A stretch of DNA of 64,000 bases. It comes from Thauera linaloolentis 47Lol = DSM 12138 (GTDB lineage: Bacteria; Pseudomonadota; Gammaproteobacteria; Burkholderiales; Rhodocyclaceae). Below, piece after piece: positions 924 through 22,051 of the stretch. A program made the position numbers and the translations under genes. Position 1 is the stretch's first letter, and every line of letters starts with the position of its first letter. Location of the stretch: positions 1 to 64,000 of the forward strand of contig NZ_AMXE01000002.1 in the NCBI RefSeq assembly GCF_000310205.1. Reading direction: 5' to 3'. The notes beneath the pieces were generated by a model. That model had not been told where the DNA came from and did not search any database. It worked only from the letters and a program-made list of their open reading frames with translations.

Positions 924-1103
924 ATCGCCCCAGCAGGCCGCAATTTTTATTATTTAAAACAGTTAGTTATAGAGGTTCGTCACTATGCAACAGGCCCCAA
1001 AAACAGACGCCTCTAAGCTTGGCGTCTGCGCTGTGCAAACGCACCAGTCTCAACATAAGCACACCTCGGTAGAGTAGACTGTAACAATTGCCAGCCTGTT
1101 GAT

Positions 1104-1119
1104 ATACCGAAAACGGTAT
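1104..1119. promoter_or_regulatory. Palindromic operator candidate overlapping the toxin start codon
   Basis: ATACCG-AAAA-CGGTAT is a perfect 6-bp inverted repeat whose last two bases are the A and T of the ATG at 1118. Its position suits an operator for autorepression by the XRE antitoxin encoded downstream. The binding is inferred. Confidence 0.45.
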
Positions 1120-1540
1120 GAGATACTCACCGCCCGATCATTACTCTCTATCTGTTCACAAGTGTGCCGAGGAAGACCTCGATGCTCTCTATGAGCTTGA
1201 TGAAGATGGCGCAGCGGCGATTGACGTGTTTCTCGAGGAAGCATCCTCGTCACAAGAAATACTCGATCGATTCACTATCCAGGACTACCGCAGTTACTCT
1301 ACCGATTTCGACTACGACATCAAGAGATGGAAACAGCTGTGGGGTAATTTTGCGTTGTGGAGAGCGCGCCTCTTTGACGTTCCAAACGTCGCTGCAAATC
1401 ACCGCATCATTTATGCACTTCACCCGATTGAACGCCGCTACTACGTCCTAGGCATCGTTCCGCGAGATTTCGACTATGACTCAGATCATCCGCTCTCGAA
1501 GCGCATCATCCGTACTTACGGAGAGCTCGACCTGCCCTGA
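1118..1540 (+). CDS. RelE/HigB-type toxin of a type II toxin-antitoxin operon
   Basis: This 140-residue protein has the RelE/HigB-like pattern in its C-terminal half: the Trp-rich WKQLWGNFALWRARLF stretch, then HRIIYALHP, RRYYVLGIVPRDFDYD and a terminal Arg-Ile helix. Members of this family are usually ribosome-dependent mRNA endonucleases. The N-terminal 60 residues are acidic and longer than in minimal RelE proteins. The gene comes first (toxin before antitoxin, the higBA order) and overlaps the following XRE gene. No strong ribosome-binding site precedes the ATG, which is buried in a palindrome. The catalytic residues of this subfamily are not certain from sequence alone. Confidence 0.7.
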   Translation: MRYSPPDHYSLSVHKCAEEDLDALYELDEDGAAAIDVFLEEASSSQEILDRFTIQDYRSYSTDFDYDIKRWKQLWGNFALWRARLFDVPNVAANHRIIYALHPIERRYYVLGIVPRDFDYDSDHPLSKRIIRTYGELDLP

Positions 1541-1961
1541 AGTTGTCCGTCGTATATCAACAAGTGATGCAAGCACAACTTCGAGCCCCAGCACTGTACT
1601 GCGGTTCGAAGCCGCCGTAATCCATCCGCGGCAGCGTGAAGGGTGGCGTGACATTCATACCCGCGCTGCTGAACTGGAACAGAATCCGGGCCGGGCGCGT
1701 GCGCTCGTTCGCGCGAGACAGCGTCTCGCTGAAACACTGTTCACGGAAACAACGCTTTCCGCACTGAGGCTTCGGAAAGGAATGTCCCAGGCAGAGCTCG
1801 CACGTCGGATCGGCTCGTCACAGTCTCGCCTGTCGCGTATAGAAGCAGGTTTGGACGACCCGCGGCGCTCAACTCTTCTCAAGCTGTCCGAGGCGCTCGG
1901 CGAAACGCTTGATGTGGTCTCGAGAGCAATCGGTGCGGGCCAAGGAGAACAGAATGGCTGA
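1476..1961 (+). CDS. XRE-family helix-turn-helix antitoxin
   Basis: The C-terminal half (about residues 90-150) is a clear Cro/C1-type helix-turn-helix: SALRLRKGMSQAELARRIG, then SQSRLSRIEAG and a leucine-rich last helix ending in GETLDVV. Such antitoxins bind the toxin and repress their own operon. The only ATG before the helix-turn-helix lies 65 bases inside the toxin gene, which gives an N-terminus of low-complexity Ser/Thr residues. A later non-ATG start is possible, because typical antitoxins of this type are about 100 residues. The stop codon overlaps the start of the next gene, so three genes probably form one transcript. Confidence 0.7.
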   Translation: MTQIIRSRSASSVLTESSTCPEVVRRISTSDASTTSSPSTVLRFEAAVIHPRQREGWRDIHTRAAELEQNPGRARALVRARQRLAETLFTETTLSALRLRKGMSQAELARRIGSSQSRLSRIEAGLDDPRRSTLLKLSEALGETLDVVSRAIGAGQGEQNG

Positions 1962-2424
1962 GCGTCACATTGAGATCGTTTACTGTGATGACATTCGCAC
2001 GGAGCTTGGAAACAAGCACAGTCTTATGGGCGTGTATCTCGGCGACATGTTTATTGACGTGATGCCGGTCGTTCTACCGAAGCTATGTGCTTGGGTAAAT
2101 GTCGTAACGCCATTGGAAAGGCCGTTCAGTCGACTACGAGTTCGAGTGTTCCATAACGACGCAGCCATCATCGACTCAGGGGAACTGACCAAGGACGGCG
2201 GTCAACTGGAATTCGGCGATGGACTCGACGATTCAATAAAAGGCGAAGATGGGCAGCACTTCATGGCAGTGAACTTCGTTTTCGCGCTTTCCCCGTTCGC
2301 AATTGATTCCGAGTCGTCTTTGGTGGTCGTCGCAGAAACAGAAGATGGAGATATGAAGAGCAGGCGGCTGCGCATCAAGAAAGGCGGCGTTGCACCCACT
2401 GTCGCAGGAAAGCTCTCAAGCTGA
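1954..2424 (+). CDS. DUF6941-like hypothetical protein, third gene of the toxin-antitoxin operon
   Basis: I start this 156-residue protein at the ATG at 1954, which has GGAG 6-10 bases upstream and overlaps the antitoxin stop by 8 bases. The N-terminal pattern (CDDIRTELGNKHSLMGVY followed by GDMFIDVMP) resembles the small uncharacterised DUF6941 family, and the fold looks beta-rich with no membrane segment. Nothing in it shows a catalytic site. Coupling to the toxin-antitoxin pair suggests co-expression rather than a proven partnership. The family assignment is from memory of the motif and is moderately sure. Confidence 0.6.
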   Translation: MAERHIEIVYCDDIRTELGNKHSLMGVYLGDMFIDVMPVVLPKLCAWVNVVTPLERPFSRLRVRVFHNDAAIIDSGELTKDGGQLEFGDGLDDSIKGEDGQHFMAVNFVFALSPFAIDSESSLVVVAETEDGDMKSRRLRIKKGGVAPTVAGKLSS

Positions 2425-2453
2425 TGATGGGCGCCCTGTCGTGCGCAATCAAG

Positions 2454-2480
2454 AAGCCCGCTCTCGGTGGGCTTTTTTGT
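2454..2480 (+). terminator. Rho-independent terminator after the toxin-antitoxin operon
   Basis: The arms AAGCCC and GGGCTT are separated by about ten bases and followed by a run of six T. It lies 30 bases past the stop of the DUF6941-like gene. Confidence 0.75.
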
Positions 2481-2528
2481 CCCTGCTCGGTTTGCCCCGC
2501 CCTGCATCTCAGAGTTCCACCCCAACTA

Positions 2529-2548
2529 AACGCCCCTCGCGGGGCGTT
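2529..2548. repeat. Small GC-rich hairpin, first copy
   Basis: AACGCCCC-TCGC-GGGGCGTT is a perfect 8-bp hairpin. A near-identical element lies at 2855-2872, so the SLOG-like remnant between them is bracketed by the same small palindrome. It may be a weak terminator or a small mobile palindrome. Confidence 0.5.
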
Positions 2549-2639
2549 GTCGTTTCTGGGGCCAGCGGCGCAAGCCTACGCGGTCATCTGCGCCTCGCGT
2601 GCGGCGGCGTAGCGCCGGGACTCTGCCTTGTCGTCGTGG

Positions 2640-2801
2640 CCCCATCCAACATCTTTTGCAGTGCAGCCTATGATCTCGTTGGCCTGCTCGGCGATCCACC
2701 CAGATGGTGTGGTGCTTCTACCTGGAGGGCGAGGCACTGCAGACATGCGGCGCGCTGCGGTTGCCGCAGGGGTGAAGGTCTACGAGCCGCTTCGCTCGTG
2801 A
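2640..2801 (+). pseudogene. Remnant of a SLOG-family (DUF2493-like) phage/plasmid gene
   Basis: The gap between 2425 and 2989 has no intact gene. One frame ends at the TGA at 2799-2801 with the segment PDGVVLLPGGRGTADMRRA followed by AGVKVYEPLR. This matches the end of SLOG/YspA-type nucleotide-binding proteins, where a PGGRGTADM loop precedes the last strand. No intact start or N-terminal domain exists, so this is a 3' relic. Confidence 0.5.
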
Positions 2802-2854
2802 AACTGATATCGCAACCTGAGCGAGGAGACGATCGCCGCCTGACTCACACCACA

Positions 2855-2872
2855 ACGCCCCGCGAGGGGCGT
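2855..2872. repeat. Small GC-rich hairpin, second copy
   Basis: ACGCCCC-GCGA-GGGGCGT is a 7-bp hairpin built from the same bases as the element at 2529-2548. It lies about 115 bases upstream of the ATPase gene. Confidence 0.45.
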
Positions 2873-2989
2873 CGTTACGTCTGCCACCGCCAACGAGGTC
2901 TCTTTGGTAGTGCGCACCCAGCGGCTGCGTTCATAATCATAGCAAAGCGTGTCATACTTAGCGAAACCATACTTTACTTGGAGATGAAC

Positions 2990-4201
2990 ATGGCGGCTGA
3001 CAAGCTCACCAAAGCTCAGGAATTGGCACAAACCTTTAGTCCAAGCGCCCCCATTGATCAGCAGTCCCTCTTTTCTGGACGGGTCACACAATTGATGGAC
3101 GTAATCAATGCCGTCAATCAAAAGGGACAACATGCGATTCTGTTCGGTGAGCGTGGTGTCGGTAAAACATCGCTAGCGCGTGTTATCTCCAGCTTAGTGC
3201 AGCATTCAGGCTCCATGATCGTCGCTTCGATTAATTGCGATCCAATGATGACGTTCTCGTCGTTGTGGCACAAGGTGCTTGAGGATACATCGGTAACGAC
3301 GAAGATGTCTCAACTTGGGTTTACTGGAGACATGAAGGTTGAGCGTTCTTCATTGAGTCAGTTTCTTCCGGCAGAGATCACGCCAGATGATGTGAGGCGC
3401 CTATTCTCTCGAGTCGGAAAGTGTCTGATCGTAATTGATGAGTTGGATCGCCTTGAGGATGAAGTAGCGACAACACTCCTTGCCGATACAATTAAGACGC
3501 TTTCTGATCACGCTATTGATGCCACTCTTCTGTTGGTCGGCGTGGCAGACTCGGTTGACGCACTTATATCAGAGCATCAGTCAATCGAACGCGCCCTGGT
3601 CCAAATCCGAATGCCTCGGATGTCGAAGGCAGAACTCTTTGAGATTATTGATAAAGGATTGAGATCCGTAGACATGTCAATAACACCTGACGCAAAGGAG
3701 AGAATTGCGGTTATTTCTCAAGGCCTACCGCACTTCACTCACCTGCTATCGCTGTACGCTGCGCAGGATGCCGTCTCAAGTGATGAAAGCAAGATAAAAG
3801 TCTCTCATGTTAGAAAGGCGATCGACTCGTCCATGGATAAAGCGCAGCAGTCAATTATCGGCGCATATCACAAAGCAACAAACAGCCCTAGAGAAAACTT
3901 GTATCCTCAGGTCCTATTAGCGTGTGCTCTAGCGCCTCAGGACGGACTTGGGTACTTCGCTGCTGTTGAAGTAAGGCCGTACCTAACCAAGATCATGAGA
4001 AAGGAATATGATATTCCAGCTTTCTCACAACACCTGAACAAATTCTGCGAGAATGATCGCGGCCCTGTTCTGCAGCGAACAGGTACGGCTCGAAGGTATA
4101 GATTTCGGTTTATTAATCCTTTACTACAACCATTTGTGATTATGAATGGGATTAAGAAAGGCCTCATTACAGAATCTGAGGTTGAAACTCCTGTTGCCTA
4201 G
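2990..4201 (+). CDS. AAA (Orc/Cdc6- or STAND-like) ATPase
   Basis: This 403-residue protein has a Walker A motif GERGVGKTS (about residues 53-61), a Walker B LIVIDELDRL (about 145-154) and a sensor-like LLVGVADSV, followed by helical and winged-helix-like regions (about 230-400). I use the ATG at 2990 because GGAG sits 6 bases upstream; the upstream open frame is not protein-like. No nuclease or transmembrane domain is fused. Such stand-alone ATPases occur in phage-defence loci and mobile elements, but nothing here proves a defence role. GC content is visibly lower than in the iron-uptake genes downstream, consistent with horizontal origin. Confidence 0.75.
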   Translation: MAADKLTKAQELAQTFSPSAPIDQQSLFSGRVTQLMDVINAVNQKGQHAILFGERGVGKTSLARVISSLVQHSGSMIVASINCDPMMTFSSLWHKVLEDTSVTTKMSQLGFTGDMKVERSSLSQFLPAEITPDDVRRLFSRVGKCLIVIDELDRLEDEVATTLLADTIKTLSDHAIDATLLLVGVADSVDALISEHQSIERALVQIRMPRMSKAELFEIIDKGLRSVDMSITPDAKERIAVISQGLPHFTHLLSLYAAQDAVSSDESKIKVSHVRKAIDSSMDKAQQSIIGAYHKATNSPRENLYPQVLLACALAPQDGLGYFAAVEVRPYLTKIMRKEYDIPAFSQHLNKFCENDRGPVLQRTGTARRYRFRFINPLLQPFVIMNGIKKGLITESEVETPVA

Positions 4202-4243
4202 TGGCAGCAGGATAGTTTTTTGAATGAAGACTGATTGAATTTT

Positions 4244-4265
4244 GAGCCCGCCGCGCCTTGGGCTC
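4244..4265 (+). terminator. Hairpin after the ATPase gene
   Basis: GAGCCC and GGGCTC form a 6-bp stem with a 10-base loop about 45 bases after the ATPase stop. The T-run is poor. A second small hairpin (CATCCAG/CTGGATG) follows at 4300-4318. Confidence 0.4.
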
Positions 4266-4400
4266 TGATGATGCCTTTTCCATCATCGAAGATTGACGCC
4301 ATCCAGCACAACTGGATGTGCCGTGAGTTTAATCACACCCCCCCATCTGAGCTACTGCCATAATCATCGCAGGGAAGTGAATTAGACGACGGAGGACTTC

Positions 4401-4640
4401 ATGAACGATGACGATATTTTCAGGGGCATCTCCCCTTCATATGGAGAATCGGCAGATCAAGCAACGGACGACTTCGAGAAAGCAGTGGAAACTCTGATGA
4501 AGGAATTTCCTTCTCACGGGGAGGCGTCCATCAAACACCTACTCAAAGCCATATGGGACGATCTGTATCGTGATTCTCGTCAGTTCGTGAATACTGAAAA
4601 CTTGGTTGAAGAGTACAAAGAAAAATACGGGAGCAGCTAA
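4401..4640 (+). CDS. Small acidic hypothetical protein
   Basis: This 79-residue acidic, helix-rich protein has a good ribosome-binding site (ACGGAGGA) 6 bases before the ATG. The base composition matches the ATPase gene upstream. I do not recognise a family. It has no signal peptide or membrane segment, and its content of Asp, Glu and Lys suggests a soluble cytoplasmic protein. Confidence 0.6.
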   Translation: MNDDDIFRGISPSYGESADQATDDFEKAVETLMKEFPSHGEASIKHLLKAIWDDLYRDSRQFVNTENLVEEYKEKYGSS

Positions 4641-4715
4641 GTACGCAAGGCGACCGCTGAGTCAATAGCATGCCGTAGCCTTGCACTGCCGGCCCGGTCG
4701 CAGTACAAAGCGAGG

Positions 4716-5066
4716 ATGCATAAAGCCATCCTCGCTTTTTCCTTGCTGGCGCCCTTGGCCGCCCACGCCAACTACGCCGAATGCATCCTGGACCGGATGC
4801 CCGGAGTTCAGAACGACGCAGCGGCCTACGCTGCCCACCAAGTCTGCCTGTCCGACTTCCCCGGCGGGCTTCAGGCGGTCAAGCAGGGCTCCGGCCGCGG
4901 CTTCTTCGGCTTCGACTCAGGCGCCGAATGTACGCTGAAAAAAGCAGGCGACACCCGCAGCCAAAGGGGCGCCGCCATGATCTCGGCGAGTTGCAGGAAG
5001 CTGTACGACGAGCCCACGCCAGACTGGGAGAAAGGGGTAATTACCCCTCCTCCCATGCAGCGCTGA
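4716..5066 (+). CDS. Small exported protein of unknown function
   Basis: The 116-residue product begins with a clear Sec signal peptide (MHKAILAFSLLAPLAAHA, cleavage after residue 18). The mature part has four cysteines (CILDR, VCLSDF, ECTLKK and SCRKLYDE), which could form two disulfides. I do not recognise a family. It converges tail to tail on the minus-strand phage gene ending at 5069. Confidence 0.65.
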   Translation: MHKAILAFSLLAPLAAHANYAECILDRMPGVQNDAAAYAAHQVCLSDFPGGLQAVKQGSGRGFFGFDSGAECTLKKAGDTRSQRGAAMISASCRKLYDEPTPDWEKGVITPPPMQR

Positions 5067-7120: not shown

Positions 7121-9286
7121 ATGACCATCTCGACCGAACTCCGCAAGGCCGGCCCTTTCACCGGCAACGGCGTAACGACTGCCTTCCCGTTCTCCTTCAA
7201 GGTGTTCGCCGCCTCCGACGTGGCCGTCACGCGAGCCGACACCCTGGGCGCCGAGACTGCGCTCGTTCTCAATTCCGACTTCGCGGTGACGCTCAACCCC
7301 GATCAGGACGTCGCGCCCGGCGGCACCGTCACCCTGGCCGCGCCGCTCGCCACCGGCTACCGGCTCGCTGTCACCAGCGTGGTGCCCAACCTGCAGCCGA
7401 CCGACATCACCAGCAACGGAGGTTTCTATCCGCGCGTCATCGAGGATGCGCTGGACCGGCACGTAGCGCAGATCCAGCAGATCAACGAGAAGGTCGACCG
7501 CGCGTTAAGGGTGGCGATTACCTCCCCACTTGGTGACAAAGCGTTGCCATCGCCCATTGCAGGGATGCTAATTGGCTGGAACGAGGGTAACGACGGACTG
7601 AAAAACTACGCGCCGATCGGAGGCACCCTGCTTGGGCAGCAACTCGCTGAGGCAGACGGTTCATCGCTCGTCGGGTTTCGGCAAAACGGCGCTGGGGCAG
7701 TGCTGCGCACATTGCAGGATAAAGCCCGGGAGCAGGTGAGCGTCATGGATTTCGGCGCGGCGGGGGATGGGGTATCTGATGATACTGCCGCTATTCAAGC
7801 TGCAATTGATTTCGCCGCGCCTAAAGGACTCGAAATTCATGTCCCGGCTGGTGCGTTCCTGGTATCTAGCCCGTTGGTATACGAAACTGAAGGGTTCTCC
7901 CCCGGATTAAGGATATCCGGAGCCGGGATGCAACGCACCACGATTGTGGCGAATTTCATCGCCCCCGACATGTCCCCTGTCCTTGATATATCAGGGGCGG
8001 AAAAAGCGCCATACCTTTATCAACTTGGAGGGCTAATCAGAGGCATCACTTTTACCAAGAAAAATGAGGCGACCAATGTAGCAGGAATCCGGCTTCTCGG
8101 ATGCTGGTATCTAACAATCGAGGACGTCAGAGTTTTTAACCTCGATGGGGATGGAATTTATACGGAGCTTCGGGATGATCTATCCAATGACTGGGGAGAG
8201 CCGAACAATCCGGACGGCTACTCCGTTATTGGGTTGCGCCTAAATAACTGCCTAATGGAAAGTGTCCGATACGGCATCGTACAAGGCAGCGGAATCGGCA
8301 GTTCGCAGTGGCACATATTCCAAACCAGAGTCGCAGGCGCGCGACTCGGAGGCATTGTCGTCGCAGGCTATAACTGCAAAATAGAAAAATGCGGATTCGG
8401 GCTTAATTCCTTACAGGCGCCTGAGGGGGAAGGATTCAACGTAAAAATAACAAGAGTTGTATCTGCTGCCCCCACAGGAGTAACCATCAGCGACACGGAG
8501 TTTGATGCATCAAAAGACAACCACATTATTATTGATCGAACGTCGGGGCTGACGCTAAAGAATAACAGATTTATTACAAGTGATAGGTTCGGCATATCCG
8601 TGCCTACACCGAAGGTCCATATCCTGGCTCAAAGCATCAATCGGGAAATGGTATCGTATGGGTGCATGCACCGGATAGATGATAATTTCGGGGCAGTCAC
8701 ACTTTACAGCGGATCCAGTTCGTGCGAAAACTGCGAAATATCTGGCGTCAGGATTGAAAACAACGGCAACCCCTACGTAGGAGTTACCGGATTCCCCGCA
8801 GATAGAGGAAACAGGGTTTCTCTCGGAAGTACGCTGCTGCGTTATGGCAACAGAAAACCCACAGTAATTGCTGGATTTAGTAGCTCTGCTTTAACGGCCG
8901 GGGTAAACATTGGCGGGAGCTCCGCTGCGCTTTCTTTTGACTCTCTCCTTAATAACGGAGGCATTTATTCAGTAAATTCGTCTTACGACCCCCTGACCGG
9001 AGTTTTTACCGCTCCGCTTGATGGCTGCTACATATTCGATGTTTTTATCTGCATCACCATTAGCGCCGATGCTACCGTTAATTTGATTCTTTCCAAGAAT
9101 GGGAGCGGGGCTGCTTCAAGTAGCGGATTTTCTCGATCTGGATTCAGAACTACGTTTTCGCTCCGTGCAGCTATCGAATTAAAGTCAGGTGACGCTATCC
9201 GTGTTCTGGCCAGTCAGTCGCACGGGGGCAATGTAGCACTCCATAATGATCGAAATACGCATGGCTTTTCTGTTTTCCTAGCATAA
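7121..9286 (+). CDS. Phage tail fibre/tailspike protein with beta-helix and C1q-like C-terminus
   Basis: This 721-residue protein has three parts. Residues about 1-130 are a T7-tail-fibre-like attachment domain (FTGNGVTTAFPFSFKVF, later NGGFYPRVIEDALDRHVAQIQQ). Residues about 205-560 form a right-handed beta-helix starting with the pectate-lyase-3 signature MDFGAAGDGVSDDTAAIQAA. The last about 120 residues resemble a C1q/TNF-like trimer domain (TGVFTAPLDGCYIFDVFICI, then RTTFSLRAAIELKSGD). Such spikes bind and often degrade surface polysaccharide. The ATG at 7121 has CTGGAGA 9 bases upstream. From about 7500 the gene is markedly more AT-rich than its own 5' end, which suggests that the receptor-binding part was exchanged. 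Confidence 0.85.
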   Translation: MTISTELRKAGPFTGNGVTTAFPFSFKVFAASDVAVTRADTLGAETALVLNSDFAVTLNPDQDVAPGGTVTLAAPLATGYRLAVTSVVPNLQPTDITSNGGFYPRVIEDALDRHVAQIQQINEKVDRALRVAITSPLGDKALPSPIAGMLIGWNEGNDGLKNYAPIGGTLLGQQLAEADGSSLVGFRQNGAGAVLRTLQDKAREQVSVMDFGAAGDGVSDDTAAIQAAIDFAAPKGLEIHVPAGAFLVSSPLVYETEGFSPGLRISGAGMQRTTIVANFIAPDMSPVLDISGAEKAPYLYQLGGLIRGITFTKKNEATNVAGIRLLGCWYLTIEDVRVFNLDGDGIYTELRDDLSNDWGEPNNPDGYSVIGLRLNNCLMESVRYGIVQGSGIGSSQWHIFQTRVAGARLGGIVVAGYNCKIEKCGFGLNSLQAPEGEGFNVKITRVVSAAPTGVTISDTEFDASKDNHIIIDRTSGLTLKNNRFITSDRFGISVPTPKVHILAQSINREMVSYGCMHRIDDNFGAVTLYSGSSSCENCEISGVRIENNGNPYVGVTGFPADRGNRVSLGSTLLRYGNRKPTVIAGFSSSALTAGVNIGGSSAALSFDSLLNNGGIYSVNSSYDPLTGVFTAPLDGCYIFDVFICITISADATVNLILSKNGSGAASSSGFSRSGFRTTFSLRAAIELKSGDAIRVLASQSHGGNVALHNDRNTHGFSVFLA

Positions 9287-9513
9287 CCCCAGGACTACCG
9301 CGGAAATCGCATGAACGCCCCGCCAGTTCCCGCTCCCTCCTGCGGCCAGCACTGGGGCATGGGCGTCGCTCTACCGGGGGCGTCAAGGCCAAAAAACATG
9401 CAAACAGGCTTAGTAAGATCAATGAGTATGCCCCTGCCACTGGTGGTGACCAAGGGCGACCAAGTTACAAAAAACATATAACAACACATTGATTTTTATT
9501 AATTTCCTCTTAG

Positions 9514-9559
9514 ATTGTGGCTCCAGGTGTCACCGGTTCGATCCCGGTATGTCGCCCCA
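9514..9559 (+). other. tRNA 3'-end fragment, probable prophage attachment site
   Basis: The bases fold as the 3' third of a tRNA: T-stem ACCGG (9532-9536), loop TTCGATC, stem CCGGT (9544-9548), acceptor strand ATGTCGC (9549-9555), discriminator C and encoded CCA (9557-9559). The 5' half, which would have to begin with GCGACAT about 75 bases upstream, is absent; that stretch is AT-rich and unrelated. A prophage that inserts into a tRNA leaves such a 3' copy at its far end. The 228 bases between the tail fibre and this site show no gene. Confidence 0.7.
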
Positions 9560-9569
9560 AATAGAAAAG

Positions 9570-9603
9570 GGCTGTGGATAGACTTCTATCCACAGCCTTT
9601 TTT
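9570..9603 (+). terminator. Strong terminator after the tRNA fragment
   Basis: A perfect 12-bp stem (GGCTGTGGATAG with CTATCCACAGCC, loop ACTT) is followed by a run of T. It starts 11 bases after the CCA and is most easily read as the native terminator of the original tRNA gene. Confidence 0.85.
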
Positions 9604-9804
9604 CGTGCGTCTCATGGCCGCGGCACTACAGCCATCATTGCGGGAGCACCCGCATCCCCCGCCCCAATGCATCCCCCGGAACCCGACTCGCACCCCACCG
9701 CGACACTGCTGCCAGCCAGGCACCGGTTGACCGAACGAATTTCTATGCGTCGGGGCGAACAGATGCGAATATGACACGACTACATTGAACATCAGAAAGA
9801 AGCA

Positions 9805-12800
9805 ATGACGCGGCCGACTCGATCGTTTACCCGTGTGTTGGTGCAGAACGTGGCCGGGCTGGCGCTGGGAATTGGTGCGGTCGCACTGGCCGCGCTTGCA
9901 TGGCAGGCGGTGTCCAGTACGCGGGAGGTGGCCGAACGCGATCTCGCCCGCTCGCTGGACCAATCGGTCGAGCGGCTGCGCATATTGATCGATGCGGCGG
10001 AAATGACGGTCGACTCGGCCGAACGCGCCGCCAGGACGCTGGCCGTCACCGCCGATACCTTGCGCCCGGCGCTGGAAAACTCGCTGGCCGCCTTCGAGCA
10101 GCGCCCGGAACTGAGCTATCTGAGCATCGCATTGCCGCAGAACGGCGAGTACGGCAACCTGGAACGGACCGCCGACGGCCGGGTGCTGCTCTGGCTTCAT
10201 CCGGGAACGCGGTCGGAGGATCGGGTCACACGCAACTTCATCCTGACGGAGAACGGATTCGCCGCGCATGACCAGCATGCAGCCAATGGCTACGATCCGC
10301 GCGAACGCCCTTTCTATCTCGAAGCCTTGGCGGAGCCCGCGCAAGGACGCTGGATACCGGCCTATCAGTGGATCGTGCACAACGGCGATAGCGGCCCGCT
10401 CTGGGGATTGAGCTACGTGAAAGCACTGCGGGATCGCGACGGCCAGTTGCTCTGCGTCCTCGATGCCGATTTCGATCTCCCCGCGCTCAACCGCTTTCTG
10501 GCCGCCATCGCCACCTCGCAGACGGTACGGCTCCAGATCGTGGAACTGGGGCCGATACCGCGCCTGATCGGCGATCCACTCATCCAGGGAGCCCCGTTGC
10601 CGGTGCCAGACGAATTCGCTCCGCTGATCGACTTTCAGGGGAAAACCACCGTCACCCGTCTCGAATCGCAGAACGGCGACTACTGGGCCGCGGCCAATCG
10701 CCTCGAACTGGCGGGCGGGCTCACCTGGGTCGTCATCGCGACACACAAGGCCTCCCTCATCGAGGAGCCGCTGCGCACCCAGCTGTACCAGGTCGCGTGC
10801 CTGGGCTTGCTGATGGCGATCGGCCTGACACTGATCTCGGCACGCATGGCGAGACGCTTGAGCCGGCCGCTGGCGGAGCTGGAACGCAGCGTCGCGCGGG
10901 CGGGACAGGCGGGGACGCCGAACGCGCTCGTCATCGCCCCCGCCTCCAATCACTTCCGCGAAACCCAGCGGCTGGGCGAAGCCCTCAACCACATGGCGAT
11001 GGCGGTACGGCAGCGCGAGGAACAACTCGCCGTCCAGAACGTCGAGCTGCTCGAAGCCAAGGAGCAGCAGGTGGCCTCGCTTGCATTGAAGGGCGCGATC
11101 TTCGACTCCACCGACGTGGCGGTCATCAGCCTGGACCAGGACCTCGTGGTGATCGAATGGAACGCCGCCGCCGAACGCCTGTTCGGCCTGGACCGCGAGC
11201 AGGTGCTGGAGCAGCCGGCCCGGCAGGCCATCGCCGCGCCGGACGGCCCCGCGCACTGGGACGAAATGCTGGCCACCAAGGATGCCGGCATGTTCCGCCT
11301 GGCAGGCGCACACCACGCATTCGATGCCGAGCTGCGCGCCCTCACGGTGAACCAACACGGACGGCCGATCCATACGCTGTTCATCAACGACATCTCCGCA
11401 CGCCGCATCGCAGAGCGGCGGCTGCAACAGGAACGCGACTATGTCGACGCGGTGCTCAACAGCCTGCCGGGCGTGTTCTACCACTATGACGAGAACGTGC
11501 GCCTGGTGCGCTGGAACCGTAATCTGGAGCGCATCGCAGGCTATACGGCCCAGGAGCTGGCGGGCGCGGACCCGATGATGTTCTACGCCGACGAGGAAAA
11601 GGCGCGGGTCGCAAGCGGCATCCGCGAGGTGTTCGAAAAGGGCGAATGCGCGGTCGAGGCCGACTATCTGCTCAAGGATGGACGGCGGATTCCGTACCTG
11701 TTTACCGGCGTCCGCTTCGAATACGGTGGACAGCGCGGCTTCGTCGGCGTCGGCTACGACATCGCCGAACGCAAGCGGGCGGAAACCGCGCTGCGGGAAA
11801 GCCTCGCCCGCTTCCATGCCGCCGCGCGCGCGACCCGTGACGCGGTGTGGGAATGGGATCTGGTCACGGACGACTTCTGGGTAAGCGACAACGTCCAGAC
11901 GCTGTTCGGCTACTCCGCAAAAGACATCTCCACGGTCTCGGCATGGGAACGCCACATCCACCCCGACGACCTGGAACGCGTGTCCACGCACATCCGCGCC
12001 GTCATCGCCGAGGGCGGACAGACGTGGGAGGATGAATACCGTTTCCGCCGCCTGGACGGCAGTTACGCCGACGTGCGCGACTGCGGCATCGTGCTGCGCG
12101 ACGTCGCAGGACGGGACGTGCGCATGGTCGGCGCGACGCAGGACATCACCGAACGCAAACAGGCCGAGGCACGCATTCGCCGCCTGGCGATGCACGACGA
12201 CCTGACGGGCCTTCCGAACCGCAACCTGATCCAGGACCGCATCGCCCAGGCCATCTCCCACGCCCGCCGCAGCGGCAGCCTGCTTGCCGTGCTCTACCTC
12301 GACCTGGACCGTTTCAAAGTGGTCAATGACGGCTACGGCCACCTGTTCGGCGATGCCGTGCTGAAGGCCGCCGGCGAACGGCTGCAGCAGCTCGTGCGCG
12401 AGAGCGACACCGTGGGCCGCCTCGGCGGCGACGAGTTCCTGATCCTGCTGGCCGACCTGCGCCAGCACACCGATGCCGAGGCCATCGCGCGCAAGATCAT
12501 CGACGGCCTCGACCGTCCGATCATCGTCCAGGGCCGGAACATCCACCTGTCCGGCAGCATCGGCGTGAGTGTGTTCCCCTGCGACGGCGAGACCGCCGAG
12601 GCGCTGATCGAGCACGCCGACATGGCGATGTACCGTGCCAAGGAACTGGGCCGCAATACCTGCCAGTTCTTCACCCACGAGATGAGCAAGGAAACGCAAC
12701 GCCGCGTCGACCTCGAGACCCGGCTGCGCAATGCCGCGGCGGCGGAGCAACTGCGGCTCGTCTATCAGCCCAAGGTCAACCTGCAGGATGGCCGCATCAC

Positions 12801-17103: not shown

Positions 17104-17619
17104 GTGCCCGCAACAGCCCATCCCATTGCCGACCTGTACGCCGAACATCACCGCTGGCTGCGTTCCTGGCTGCGCCAGAAGCTCGGCTGCTCGGACCACG
17201 CAGCAGACCTGGCCCAGGACACCTTCGTAAGGCTATTGACCCAGGAGCAACGCGGCACCCCCGTAGAGGCCCTGCGCCAGCCGCAGGCCTATCTGGCCAC
17301 CGTTGCCCACGGGCTGGTGGTCAATCACTGGCGGCGCCTGGAGATCGAGCGCGCCTGGCTGGAAACACTGTCCAGCCAACCCGAGCCGCTCGCCCCCTCG
17401 CCCGAAGAACGCACCCTGCTGCTCGAAGCGCTGTGCGAGCTCGACGCCCTACTCGACCGCCTCAACCCCAAGGCCCGCAGCGCTTTCCTGATGGCGCAGC
17501 TGGAAGGCCTGAGCTACATCGAGATCGCCGGGCACCTGGGCGTCTCCGAACGCATGGTCAAGAAATACATGGCCCAGGCCATGCTCCACTGCCTGCAATC
17601 GGGCCTCGCCCCGGCATGA
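17104..17619 (+). CDS. C1 FecI-type ECF sigma factor
   Basis: This 171-residue iron-starvation sigma factor has region 2 (about 8-75, with DHAADLAQDTFVRLL) and region 4 (about 110-165, with YIEIAGHLGVSERMVKKYM). It should direct RNA polymerase to the promoter of its receptor gene at 18936. The start is GTG, chosen because the protein then begins a few residues before the conserved DLYAEHH segment. Its stop overlaps the FecR ATG (ATGA). The close partners in C3, C7 and C8 share the WLRxKLGC stretch. Confidence 0.92.
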   Translation: MPATAHPIADLYAEHHRWLRSWLRQKLGCSDHAADLAQDTFVRLLTQEQRGTPVEALRQPQAYLATVAHGLVVNHWRRLEIERAWLETLSSQPEPLAPSPEERTLLLEALCELDALLDRLNPKARSAFLMAQLEGLSYIEIAGHLGVSERMVKKYMAQAMLHCLQSGLAPA

Positions 17620-18629
17620 AGACCAACCCTGCCCCCGCGCCCGACTTCCAGGTACTGCAACAAGCGGCCGAATGGTTCGCCGTCCTCGGCTCATCGTCGG
17701 TCAGCGCCGACCAATGGCAGCGCTGGCAAGCTTGGTGCGAGGCCGACGAACGGCACCGCGCCGCCTGGGCCAGGGTCCAGGCCATCAGCGGCGCCTTCAC
17801 CAGCCTGCCAACCACCGACAAGAGCGGCGCCCGCCAGACGCTCGACACGGCCTCCGAACGCCAGCGGGTCCGTCGCCAGGCCGCCAAGATGCTGCTCCTG
17901 CTGTGCGGTACCGGCAGCCTCGGCTGGATGGCGGCCAGCCGCGCGCCGTGGGCCGAATGGAACGCGGGCTACACCACCGCCACCGGCGAACGGCGCGAAG
18001 TCGAACTCGCCGACGGCGGCCGCATCTGGCTCAACACCGCCAGCGCCATGGACGTGGACTACGACACCGGGCGGCGACGCATCCGCCTCCATCGCGGCGA
18101 AATCCTCGTCGAAACCGCCCTCGACACGGTCCAGCCGCCGCGCCCCTTCATCGTCGACACCGCCCACGGCCGCCTGCGCGCCCTCGGCACCCGTTTCAGC
18201 GTCCAGCGCCGCGAAGACAGCACACAGATCACCGTCTTCGCAGGCACCGTCGAACTCAGCCCCGCCAACGGCGGCTCCCCGCGGGTTCTTGCGGCCGGCC
18301 AGCAGAGCCACCTCAACGCAGCCGGCGCCACGCCCGCCGAAACGGCCGGCCACGCCCGCGAAGCCTGGCAACGCGGCCTGCTGCTGGCCGAAGACGTACG
18401 CCTGGAAGATTTCATCGCCGAACTCGCCCGCCACCGCCCCGGCTATCTCGGCTGCGCCCCGGAAGCCGCCAACCTGCGCCTCGTCGGCGCCTACGAACTC
18501 GCGGACACCGACCGCGTGCTCGCCGCGCTGGAAGCCACCCTGCCCGTGCGCATCCGGCGCATCCTGCCGTGGTGGGTGGTGGTGGAAGCACGGCAGAAAG
18601 AATCCGCGCCTCAAGACAGGACGGGGTGA
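17616..18629 (+). CDS. C1 FecR-type anti-sigma/signal transducer
   Basis: This 337-residue single-pass protein has a cytoplasmic DUF4880 domain with the Trp-rich anti-sigma signature (WQRWQAWCEADERHRAAW, about 34-51), a transmembrane helix (about 90-108) preceded by RVRR, and a FecR beta domain (GERREVELADGGRIWLNTAS onward). A C-terminal STN-like domain (about 265-325) contacts the receptor. It carries the signal from receptor to sigma. The RR before the membrane helix would fit Tat-dependent insertion, known for some FecR proteins; that is inferred here. Confidence 0.92.
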   Translation: MKTNPAPAPDFQVLQQAAEWFAVLGSSSVSADQWQRWQAWCEADERHRAAWARVQAISGAFTSLPTTDKSGARQTLDTASERQRVRRQAAKMLLLLCGTGSLGWMAASRAPWAEWNAGYTTATGERREVELADGGRIWLNTASAMDVDYDTGRRRIRLHRGEILVETALDTVQPPRPFIVDTAHGRLRALGTRFSVQRREDSTQITVFAGTVELSPANGGSPRVLAAGQQSHLNAAGATPAETAGHAREAWQRGLLLAEDVRLEDFIAELARHRPGYLGCAPEAANLRLVGAYELADTDRVLAALEATLPVRIRRILPWWVVVEARQKESAPQDRTG

Positions 18630-18840: not shown

Positions 18841-18873
18841 GAAAAAAATCGCGATCAAGGTTCCCTTTTCGCC
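18841..18873 (+). promoter_or_regulatory. FecI-like promoter candidate of the C1 receptor
   Basis: GAAAAAAAT followed about 12 bases later by TTCCCTTTTCGCC lies 60-95 bases before the receptor start. The same two blocks recur before most other receptors in the array. The 18630-18935 gap shows no other feature. Confidence 0.45.
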
Positions 18874-18935
18874 TGCCTCGATTGGCTTACCGGATGAAAC
18901 CCCTTTCATCCAACCGATCCGAGCAAGGCATCCCC

Positions 18936-21425
18936 ATGACTGACTCCCGCCCCGCCGCAGTTCCTGCCCCGCGTACCAAGACCCGCCCCACTCTGATGGC
19001 CCTGGCCGTGCGCGGCGCGCTGCTCGGCCTGCCGCTGATCGCCGGCCTCCCCCATGCGATGCCTGCCGCCCAGGCTGCCGAAACCGCCGAAGCACGCCGC
19101 TACGACGTGCCGGCCGGGCCGCTGGCGGGCGCCCTGCTCGCCTTCGCCACGCAGGCCGGCATCCAGCTTTCGGCGGATTCCGGCTTCACCAGCGAGTTGA
19201 ACAGCCCCGGCGTGCGCGGCCGGCACACCCTCGCCGCCGCCCTGGCCACCGTGCTGGCCGGCACCGGGCTGGAGGCCGTTAACCGGGGCGGCAACGAATA
19301 CACCTTGCGCAGGCTGCCGGCGCGGCAGGGAGAAACGACCCTTGCACCGGTGAAGGTAAGCGCCGGCGCGCTGCTCGACGCCACCACCGAAAACACCGGT
19401 TCCTACACCACTGGCAGCATGAGTACGGCCACCAAGCTGCCGCTCTCCATCCGCGAAACCCCGCAGACGGTGACCGTCCTTACCCGCCAGCGGATAGAAG
19501 ACCAAGGCCTGAACACCCTCAGCGATGCAGTGAAATATACGCCCGGTCTGACAGTGAATAAGTGGGGCGGAGAAAGAGATCGTTTTATTTCACGCGGTTT
19601 CGATATCGACAACCTGATGCTCGATGGCCTTCCCGTCACCTATAACTTTGACACTATGTCCACGGGACTATCCATGTACGACAGGGTCGAAGTGGTGCGC
19701 GGTGTTTCAGGGCTGATGGAAGGGGTAGGCTCTCCTGGTGGCTCGATCAATCTGGTGCGCAAACGCCCCACCCGGGAATTCCAAGGCTCTGCTAACGCCG
19801 CCGCTGGCAGTTGGGACAATTACCAAGTCGGGCTGGATGTCTCCGGGCCACTGACAGCACAAGGCGGCCTGCGAGGCAGGGCGGTAGTGTCCTACCAGGA
19901 CAAGAACTCCTTCATCGACTACGCCGAGAACAAGCGCAGCCTGCTCTACGGTGTGCTCGAAGGCGATATCGGCGAAAACACGCTGCTGACGCTTGGCGCT
20001 TCTTGGAGTCGGGAAGATAACCCCGGAACCTCCTGGATCGGCCTGGGCACCTATCTGGACGGAAGCTTCCTTCCCATCTCTCGCTCGACCCGAATGAGCC
20101 CGAGTTGGTCATTTCATGACAAAGAAAGCATGACCGTGTTCACCGAACTGGAACATCGACTCTCGGAAGACTGGAAATCCAAGGTCTCCGCCACATACAT
20201 GCATAGTGAGCATGATTTTTTATCAACTTCTCTCGGATATTCGGCAGACCATAACCCTTATTTCCGGCTGGCCGGTGCCGGTCAGGCTTATCGATATGAT
20301 GAAAAGCAGTACAGCCTTGACGGCCTGCTTTCAGGGAATTTCTCGCTATTTGGAAAAAACCACGACCTGCTGCTGGGCGCCAGCCATAGGAAAGTGAAGA
20401 ATCGTAATCTCGGGGCAAATACCGACTTTTCCGGTAGCAGTTTCGACCCTACCAACTGGGATCCCAGCTCCGTTCCCAAGCCCTCCATTATCTCTGATTG
20501 GCACGCCTGGCATCAGTATGTAGACACTGAACAATCTGCCGCATACGTGACAAGCCGATTCACCTTTAGCGATCAGCTAAAACTGATTCTGGGCGGACGT
20601 CTGGACTGGTATGAATATGAGGTAGATAATGTCATTATAACCAATAACGCCAGCTACAAAGCCACTCGTGAGTTCACACCCTATGCCGGATTGGTGTACG
20701 ACCTGAACGATACTTACACGGCCTATATAAGCTGGACTAGGATATTCAAACCTCAAAACTATCAAACGCCAAGCAGTAGCCTGCTCGATCCGCAGGAAGG
20801 CTCCAACTATGAAATCGGCCTAAAAGGCGAGTACTTGGACGGAAGGTTGAACGCCAGTTTGGCTGTTTTCCAGTTGGACTTGGAGAACCTTCCCATTTCC
20901 TTGTCTACTGCATCTTGTATGGCCGGCCAAGTCTCCTGCTATGTACCTTCAGGAAAAGTAAGAAGCCGAGGCATAGACATAGAACTGAACGGAAGCCTGA
21001 CCGAAAACTGGCAGATCGGTGCTGGCTACACCTATAACTATGCAAAGGTGCTCGAAAAATCATCCTACAGCCAGACTAACGTCTACATTGCCGGAGATCG
21101 CTGGGGGACGAATCTCCCATTGAATCTTTTTAAAGCTTTTACCAACTACAGACTGCCAGGAAAACTGCAAGACTGGAAAATTGGCGGTGGAATCCACACA
21201 CAAAGCAAGACCCACTCTCCTTATGGAACGAATGGAATAAAGCAAGAAGGCTATACCGTGGCGGACCTATTTGTGAGCCACGCGCTCAACAGAAACACTG
21301 AAATATCATTCAAAATCAATAATGTGTTCGACAAAAAATACTATTTCACTATAAGCAGCCCATGGGGATCAAATTTCTTCGGAGATCCGAGAAACTATAT
21401 AATCTCTGCTAAATATAAATTCTAA
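18936..21425 (+). CDS. C1 TonB-dependent siderophore receptor with STN domain
   Basis: This 829-residue outer-membrane receptor has a signal peptide (to about 47), an STN signalling domain (about 55-125), a TonB-box-like TLAPVKVSA, a plug (about 150-265, SIRETPQTVTVLTRQRIEDQ) and a beta-barrel ending in KYKF. A Cys pair (CMAGQVSC) lies in a late extracellular loop. The start is the ATG at 18936; an in-frame ATG at 18894 is weaker. Base composition changes inside the gene: the signal, STN and early plug are GC-rich, but from about 19530 to the end the sequence is clearly more AT-rich. By eye the barrel is closest to that of C7. Confidence 0.92.
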   Translation: MTDSRPAAVPAPRTKTRPTLMALAVRGALLGLPLIAGLPHAMPAAQAAETAEARRYDVPAGPLAGALLAFATQAGIQLSADSGFTSELNSPGVRGRHTLAAALATVLAGTGLEAVNRGGNEYTLRRLPARQGETTLAPVKVSAGALLDATTENTGSYTTGSMSTATKLPLSIRETPQTVTVLTRQRIEDQGLNTLSDAVKYTPGLTVNKWGGERDRFISRGFDIDNLMLDGLPVTYNFDTMSTGLSMYDRVEVVRGVSGLMEGVGSPGGSINLVRKRPTREFQGSANAAAGSWDNYQVGLDVSGPLTAQGGLRGRAVVSYQDKNSFIDYAENKRSLLYGVLEGDIGENTLLTLGASWSREDNPGTSWIGLGTYLDGSFLPISRSTRMSPSWSFHDKESMTVFTELEHRLSEDWKSKVSATYMHSEHDFLSTSLGYSADHNPYFRLAGAGQAYRYDEKQYSLDGLLSGNFSLFGKNHDLLLGASHRKVKNRNLGANTDFSGSSFDPTNWDPSSVPKPSIISDWHAWHQYVDTEQSAAYVTSRFTFSDQLKLILGGRLDWYEYEVDNVIITNNASYKATREFTPYAGLVYDLNDTYTAYISWTRIFKPQNYQTPSSSLLDPQEGSNYEIGLKGEYLDGRLNASLAVFQLDLENLPISLSTASCMAGQVSCYVPSGKVRSRGIDIELNGSLTENWQIGAGYTYNYAKVLEKSSYSQTNVYIAGDRWGTNLPLNLFKAFTNYRLPGKLQDWKIGGGIHTQSKTHSPYGTNGIKQEGYTVADLFVSHALNRNTEISFKINNVFDKKYYFTISSPWGSNFFGDPRNYIISAKYKF

Positions 21426-21537
21426 GGCCAGTTCCGTAGTTTGGGCTGAACGCAGCGATACCCAGGAAAACACGGCACCGCTCCTGTAGCGCCCCTTCGC
21501 AGCCAAAGCCGTCCCGCGCACTGCACACATCAACCAC

Positions 21538-21562
21538 GACGGCACCCGCTTGCGGGCGCCGT
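21538..21562 (+). terminator. Hairpin after the C1 receptor
   Basis: ACGGCACCCGC and GCGGGCGCCGT pair with a single A/C mismatch over 11 positions and are followed by TTTCCTTC. Confidence 0.5.
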
Positions 21563-21663
21563 TTCCTTCAACACGCGCAGGATGGGGCGCTGCGCGTGTC
21601 GCGCCTGCCTTCGTATTCAGACAGACGCCGGACCAGATCGAAAAACGATCCGTCACACGCTCA

Positions 21664-21870
21664 CTATGGCCCATATGCCCACGGATCGATCAGCCCAACG
21701 CCGCTGCTCTCGAAATCCCTGGTATTCCCGGTCACGAAGGCAAAGCCATGTTCCAGGGAGATGGCCGCAATCATGGAATCGTTCATGACCATCGGACCGG
21801 GAATATGCAATCTGGCGCAAATCAAGGCGGCCTGCTCCGAAAACGGCAGCGCCCGACCGAAAAAATGGCC
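21664..21870 (-). pseudogene. C-terminal fragment of a VapC-type PIN-domain toxin
   Basis: The minus strand ends with ARLHIPGPMVMNDSMIAAIS, then EHGFAFVTGNTRDFE and GLIDPWAYGP. These are the hallmarks of the C-terminal half of PIN ribonucleases (the conserved D...A and T.N..DF acidic sites). The N-terminal half with the first catalytic Asp is missing, and the fragment is fused out of order to an antitoxin relic, so it cannot be an active toxin. Confidence 0.75.
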
Positions 21871-22051
21871 ACCATCAACGCCAGCAAGGATTGCCCGCCT
21901 TCTTCCTTTTGCGCGTAGTAGTCCTCTATGGTCTGCAACACGTAGCGCGGCCTTCCCCGGTCCGTGATGAATACCGGTCCGGAAGCAGCCACCGTTTGGT
22001 GACCCCGACATCACGGGTGAACTGACGGCTTGAAACAGCGTGGATGGCCAT
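21865..22051 (-). pseudogene. Frameshifted Phd/YefM-type antitoxin gene
   Basis: From the ATG at 22051 the minus strand reads MAIHAVSSRQFTRDVG, the typical Phd N-terminus, then shifts frame near 21995. It resumes as ASGPVFITDRGRPRYVLQ and TIEDYYAQKEEGGQSLLALM. The natural C-terminal toxin-binding tail is lost because the sequence runs straight into the PIN fragment. This is a dead phd/vapC pair left behind the C1 receptor. Confidence 0.7.

Follow-up and report, generated by a model that had tools for sequence, protein, structure and literature searches.

Exchange of plug and barrel behind a resident signalling head in an FpvA-like receptor of Thauera linaloolentis 47Lol

Background

A siderophore importer that switches on its own synthesis faces a puzzle: it must change its ligand without breaking its signal. 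According to a review (PMC9249621), ligand in the barrel of such a receptor sends a signal via the plug and STN domain to FecR, and the sigma factor then transcribes the receptor gene. The protein families, their architecture, this signalling logic and laboratory swaps of receptor heads are already known. The C1 receptor gene of T. linaloolentis 47Lol (own genome, G000) raises the question of how nature handles the same problem. It lies in an array within the window, the whole 64,000-nucleotide stretch of contig NZ_AMXE01000002.1 that was analysed here. An initial annotation made from the sequence described the gene as a mosaic, GC-rich in its 5' part and much less so from about position 19530, and proposed that the plug and barrel had been replaced while the signal peptide, STN domain, FecR and sigma factor were kept.

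Identity and layout of the C1 unit

The C1 receptor (18936-21425, forward strand) has 829 amino acids encoded in an open frame that is uninterrupted, including across the joint described below. Its Pfam domains are STN (residues 77-126; PF07660, 32.7 bits against a cut-off of 28.4), Plug (172-269) and barrel (351-797). The protein passes the curated cut-off for TonB-dependent siderophore receptors (TIGR01783; 376.6 bits, cut-off 223.5), and its closest solved structures are ferripyoverdine receptors. Genes for an ECF sigma factor and FecR adjoin it, as judged from gene order and from Pfam matches over their cut-offs (Table 1). C1 is therefore predicted to be an FpvA-like TonB-dependent transducer in a cell-surface signalling unit. 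Because it scores under the cut-offs of both the FauA (NF049960; 522.7 bits, cut-off 900) and FhuE (NF007447; 457.2 bits, cut-off 666) equivalogs, no ligand is assigned. The LAPVKV motif is presumably the TonB box, a name given from its position. Elements similar by eye to the promoter-like element between fecR and the receptor gene are present in many of 84 units, and the element is near-identical, again by eye, among units that have the same head and differing barrels.

Table 1. Parts of the C1 locus in window coordinates
Feature	Coordinates	Strand	Evidence
FecI-like ECF sigma factor, C1 unit, resident head	17104..17619	+	Pfam Sigma70 regions 2 and 4; GC3 0.83
FecR anti-sigma regulator, C1 unit, resident head	17616..18629	+	Pfam FecR and DUF4880; GC3 0.86
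Promoter-like element (A-tract, then TTTTCG, TCG) in the FecR-receptor gap, travelling with the head	18842..18890	+	By eye
Signal peptide, STN (19164-19313) and TonB-box-like LAPVKV (19341-19358), resident C1 head part	18936..19358	+	STN by Pfam
Joint zone, linker and plug start	19359..19532	+	G023-head homology fades; GC3 step at codons 178-199
AT-richer plug and barrel to the stop codon, very probably imported	19491..21425	+	GC3 0.571; closest kin 62% in G425; barrel tree
Resident right flank with terminator-like hairpin (by eye), common to the G023 unit with another barrel	21510..21611	+	Local alignment

Receptors of this kind were catalogued by similarity to C1. The catalogue holds 37 siderophore-type receptors of the own genome, in which 32 of 41 STN matches fall (nine lie outside it, and five catalogued receptors are without a listed STN), together with 14 receptors of G023 (21 STN matches), 31 of G198 (37) and two of G003 (7); in these three genomes some of the remaining loci were not fetched and others have no siderophore-type barrel match. 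Five own-genome frames of 1145-1312 aa with an STN domain (contigs C32, C34, C45, C46 and C62) are a separate observation. Four of them match only the C1 head and the fifth (C34) has no match at 1e-8, and all five may combine a signalling head with a partner that is no siderophore-type barrel.

A composition step inside the receptor gene

The maximum likelihood change point of GC3 in C1 is codon 186 (2-lnL interval 178-199, about 19467-19532), with GC3 at 0.855 upstream and 0.571 downstream, which agrees with the boundary first placed at about 19530. The likelihood ratio of 55.9 compares with a maximum of 26.5 over 1000 codon permutations. Along the gene, 50-codon blocks have GC3 values of 0.80, 0.92, 0.86 and 0.76 and, after this fourth block, drop to 0.50-0.64 save one of 0.78. 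The head part of the receptor gene has a GC3 of about 0.86-0.89. The sigma factor, FecR and STN parts match the host; own-genome means are 0.854 for sigma factors (n = 27), 0.876 for FecR (n = 32) and 0.856 for STN (n = 36), with standard deviations of 0.032-0.044. Barrels of the same genome are more scattered (n = 37; mean 0.783, standard deviation 0.103, range 0.58-0.92), their GC3 is uncoupled from that of FecR (rho 0.005, n = 32), and the C1 barrel is the lowest of the 37. The seven other receptors of the 64-kb window have barrels of GC3 0.82-0.91.

GC at fourfold sites in the C1 unit is 0.87 for sigma, 0.92 for FecR, 0.91 for STN and 0.61 for the barrel. Since these sites show the gap between STN and barrel, amino-acid make-up is not its cause, and a control set rules out the same explanation: in a sample of 50 receptors from other proteobacteria, chosen for their resemblance to C1 and each with both FecR and STN, GC3 of the STN exceeds that of the barrel by at least 0.15 in one (mean difference -0.018, standard deviation 0.066). 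Nor is C1 a unique case, as 7 of the 36 own-genome receptors show a fall of 0.15 or more (0 of 14 in G023, 1 of 31 in G198). In G023, STN GC3 correlates with barrel GC3 (rho 0.72, n = 13), which counts against exchange.

Two further low-GC features were seen. A unit on contig C7 of the own genome (L111) has a barrel of GC3 0.67, and its barrel and FecR are 97% and 90% identical to those of a G198 unit (L163, contig C4); it may be an older import shared together with its head. Beside the array, window positions 1001-5000 and 8001-10000 are low in GC (0.49-0.58 per kb) and hold long frames, and one of these frames, at 7121-9286, has a phage-like appearance by eye.

One head with several barrels

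The congeneric genome G023 shares the array of the window. Its orthologues of the C1 sigma, FecR and STN parts are syntenic (71-78% nucleotide identity); the sigma factors are 86% and the FecR proteins 69% identical, and C1 residues 44-157 are 63% identical to the G023 head. Behind this C1-type head G023 carries a different barrel, which is 94% identical to the barrel of C2 in the window and has 35% amino-acid identity to that of C1. The G023 gene has no GC step (GC3 0.85 in the first 170 codons and 0.88 afterwards). The right flanks also correspond: the C1 flank aligns to that of G023 with a local score of 134 (best of 300 shuffles, 51), and the C2 flank scores 40 against it. As both the C1 head and the right flank are common to G023, the middle was exchanged in place. 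Beyond the C1 flank, about 300 bp of the window (21612-21913) that lead up to the region upstream of the C2 unit are without a counterpart in G023.

The same re-pairing affects other units. G023 also has a C4-type head with a C3-type barrel and a C6-type head with a C4-type barrel, so that three of its five units are chimeras relative to the window. In 150-nt windows, the best partner between G023 and the window changes at the STN/plug joint, over a span of a few hundred bases. The C2 and C8 units of G023 keep their partners, and identity at the joint falls from mostly 87-98% to 59-86% in C2 and rises from 61-80% to 83-96% in C8 (last window 69%).

Matches to the C1 FecR with E-values of at most 1e-60 are found in 29 of 395 sampled family genomes (own genome included), four others exceeding 60% identity. 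Besides G023, these are G186, G156 and G003, at 63-66%. G156 and G186 place a third barrel behind a C1-type head (42% and 41% identity, respectively, to the C1 barrel and about 56% to G198_C2_15860). G003 has kept the sigma factor (89%) and FecR (66%), and the 9 kb fetched there hold no STN or barrel match. At this locus (L216, G003:C61:18000-27000) the C1-type FecR matches over residues 9-293 only, and it is perhaps an orphan or decayed head. One C1-type head thus appears with three barrels across these genomes.

Relatives of the C1 barrel

The closest relatives of the C1 barrel are two proteins of G425, from another family of the same order (62% and 58-59% identity). Their loci have a local GC of 53-58%, with barrel GC3 of 0.70 and 0.51, and they carry an STN, FecR and sigma factor of their own; these FecR proteins are 32-38% like that of C1. 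Outside the own genome, identity above 50% to the C1 barrel is found only in G425 and G198 (57%). None closer than 62% was found among 29 genus, 395 family, 399 order and 369 class genomes, the last three sets being samples of larger groups. The best segment identity was 45% in a pattern scan of 84,980 species genomes and 44% in plasmids.

Conflict between head and barrel trees

The trees of the two parts are not congruent. In the FecR tree, C1 groups with the G023, G003, G156 and G186 units (support 99), and in the barrel tree with G425_a (97), these two being joined by G425_b, C54 and G198_C6_267889 (99). The barrel of the same-head G023 unit groups with C2 (100) and those of G156 and G186 with G198_C2_15860 (100). 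These C1 trees are quick searches; long branches are flagged in the FecR tree, with none in the five-row C1 clade. Together with the head and right flank common to G023, this discordance bears out the replacement proposed in the initial annotation.

The conflict extends to 67 complete units of four genomes, all with four parts and within length limits (FastTree, SH-like supports). Strong splits in conflict number 0 of 26 between the sigma and FecR trees, 2 of 28 between FecR and STN and 18 of 28 between FecR and barrel. Quartet agreement (chance 0.333) is 0.636 for sigma-FecR, 0.528 for FecR-STN and 0.471 for sigma-STN, and 0.446, 0.368 and 0.347 for the barrel with STN, FecR and sigma, respectively. 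The STN segment agrees almost equally with the sigma and barrel trees, a point against exchange. The segment was cut at residue 172, and its intermediate place may arise because the TonB box and linker are counted in it. Likelihood tests reject the barrel tree for every head alignment and every head tree for the barrel alignment. AU tests (2000 replicates, too few according to the program) also reject head trees against one another, with far smaller likelihood gaps; for the fecR alignment the gap is 332 for the sigma tree and 4206 for the barrel tree.

Pairwise counts, in which pairs are not independent, point the same way. Of the 27 cross-genome pairs whose FecR proteins share 75% identity or more, 14 have barrels below 50% and none has STN segments below 50%; where barrels share 75% or more and both partners have a FecR (25 pairs), FecR is below 45% in nine. 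The same counts in control taxa are 1 of 28 and 4 of 31, in a set drawn by C1 similarity that gives no fair rate. Barrel exchange seems to occur also in Pseudomonas, perhaps less often.

Position of the joints

Left joints cluster between the TonB box and the plug start. Thirteen discordant barrel pairs have a main stretch of common DNA whose start lies 69-366 nt before the codon of residue 172; its end, counted downstream from the first base of the stop codon, lies at 3-13 nt in ten pairs and at 34, 53 and 149 nt in three. In one concordant pair the shared DNA extends more than 2 kb further upstream. Nine three-way breakpoint tests, covering six recombinants, put the left breakpoint at -114 to -3 nt in six cases; of the other three, one gave -200 to -154, one +59, and one anywhere from -161 to +71. 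Right breakpoints are poorly resolved by these tests (3 to about 145 nt past the stop); that of the G023 unit seemed to be placed at the stop codon, and that of C1 is bounded by direct alignment to the 84 nt after the stop.

The TonB box, linker and plug start are the best-conserved stretches of 32 own receptors (nucleotide identity 0.64, 0.60 and 0.69, against 0.55 or less elsewhere and 0.53 at the C-terminus), which makes the left joint a suitable place for homologous recombination. A conserved block is missing at the right joint, which counts as weak for this process. No fixed site was noticed by inspection of the joints. In C1 itself, clear head homology stops at about residue 157, upstream of the GC step. 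The intervening linker is similar to C54 and to the G198 orthologue of C54, so that two joints may be present in C1.

Origin of the mosaic

The proposed model is as follows. The C1 unit very probably kept its resident head and had its plug and barrel exchanged in place from a lower-GC relative, as recurs in related arrays. The head (sigma factor, FecR, promoter, signal peptide and STN) would be kept and the plug and barrel replaced to about the stop codon. Homologous recombination is the most likely process, with one crossover in the conserved stretch from the TonB box to the plug start and a second at or shortly past the stop codon. The new barrel would recognise a different ferric siderophore, and the new ligand would switch on synthesis of this receptor by way of the old FecR and sigma factor.

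Import of the whole unit from a lower-GC donor, with later homogenisation or amelioration of sigma, FecR and STN, could draw on the genome-wide uniformity of head GC3 and on short DNA shared between heads, such as 28 identical nucleotides right before the TonB box in C1 and C2. It is nevertheless highly improbable, since the C1 head is orthologous and syntenic with a G023 head that has another barrel and the same right flank, and the C1 FecR clusters with its own family and not with G425. That an imported receptor landed here and a native head was fused in front of it, no barrel being replaced, is likewise very unlikely. Relatives lacking an STN do exist, and in several of 80 loci the match to C1 starts no earlier than about residue 128-149, but the G425 barrels most like that of C1 come with an STN, FecR and sigma factor. 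Unless the change was in G023 alone, its combination of the same head and flank with another barrel further implies that a barrel of some kind stood behind the head at this place beforehand.

Drift of the barrel toward AT in place under relaxed codon selection is scarcely credible. C54, a relative of this barrel, also loses GC3 late in the gene, but in the barrel tree C1 sits with G425, apart from the barrels of units that share its head, and the 35% identity of the C1 barrel to its G023 counterpart contrasts with 86% for sigma. The genome is a draft of 220 contigs, in which paralogues might have been misassembled; against this, the open frame crosses the joint, both flanks match a syntenic locus, and discordant pairs turn up repeatedly among genomes assembled independently of one another (in one such pair, barrels are 97% and FecR 28% identical), so that an artefact has hardly any probability. 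Exchange in place behind a resident head is the preferred explanation.

Relation to known systems and implications

The C1 unit shares with FpvA, FecA and PupB the same three genes in the same order and the STN, plug and barrel; it differs in that its head and barrel are of different ancestry and the exchange recurs across units and genomes. Its closest parallel is a laboratory construct. In the review PMC9249621, the PupBA chimera (Koster 1994) is told to transport the A ligand, which then induces the pupB circuit, and PupAB to transport without signalling, so chimera function cannot be assumed. C1 has the PupBA layout, a resident-type head of one receptor on a foreign barrel, but is natural, in place and one of many. 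A changed ligand without a rewired signal, as the initial annotation expected, would fit these chimeras as there described. Pseudomonas pyoverdine receptors, in the sections available of PMC11444679 and PMC2777410, resemble C1 in that their types vary with the ligand and are spread over unrelated strains. Those sections deal with the exchange of synthetases, with plug regions by which the receptor groups can be told apart and with how fpvA types disperse; in contrast to C1, they describe no barrel exchange behind a fixed FecR/sigma head. In the portions seen of the open-licence literature, no description was found of barrels being exchanged naturally, repeatedly and in place behind fixed heads, which is weak evidence of novelty.

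Because the same exchange recurs in the arrays of related genomes, barrels behave as interchangeable modules behind fixed signalling heads, and such receptors seem to evolve by exchange of interchangeable parts. The chances are about even that the stretch from TonB box to plug is a standing recombination joint at which some 40 tuned heads per genome receive barrels from array neighbours or other species, specificity and circuit evolving as a pair of nearly independent libraries. The laboratory chimeras appear to have a counterpart in nature: the head fits FecR and sigma and stays, and the barrel fits the ligand and is exchanged at a fixed joint. If true, barrel orthology would be no predictor of regulation, as in the two genomes with barrels 97% and FecR 28% alike. 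The natural sets of one head with three barrels and one barrel with several heads would be ready material for testing how a ligand signal crosses the outer membrane.
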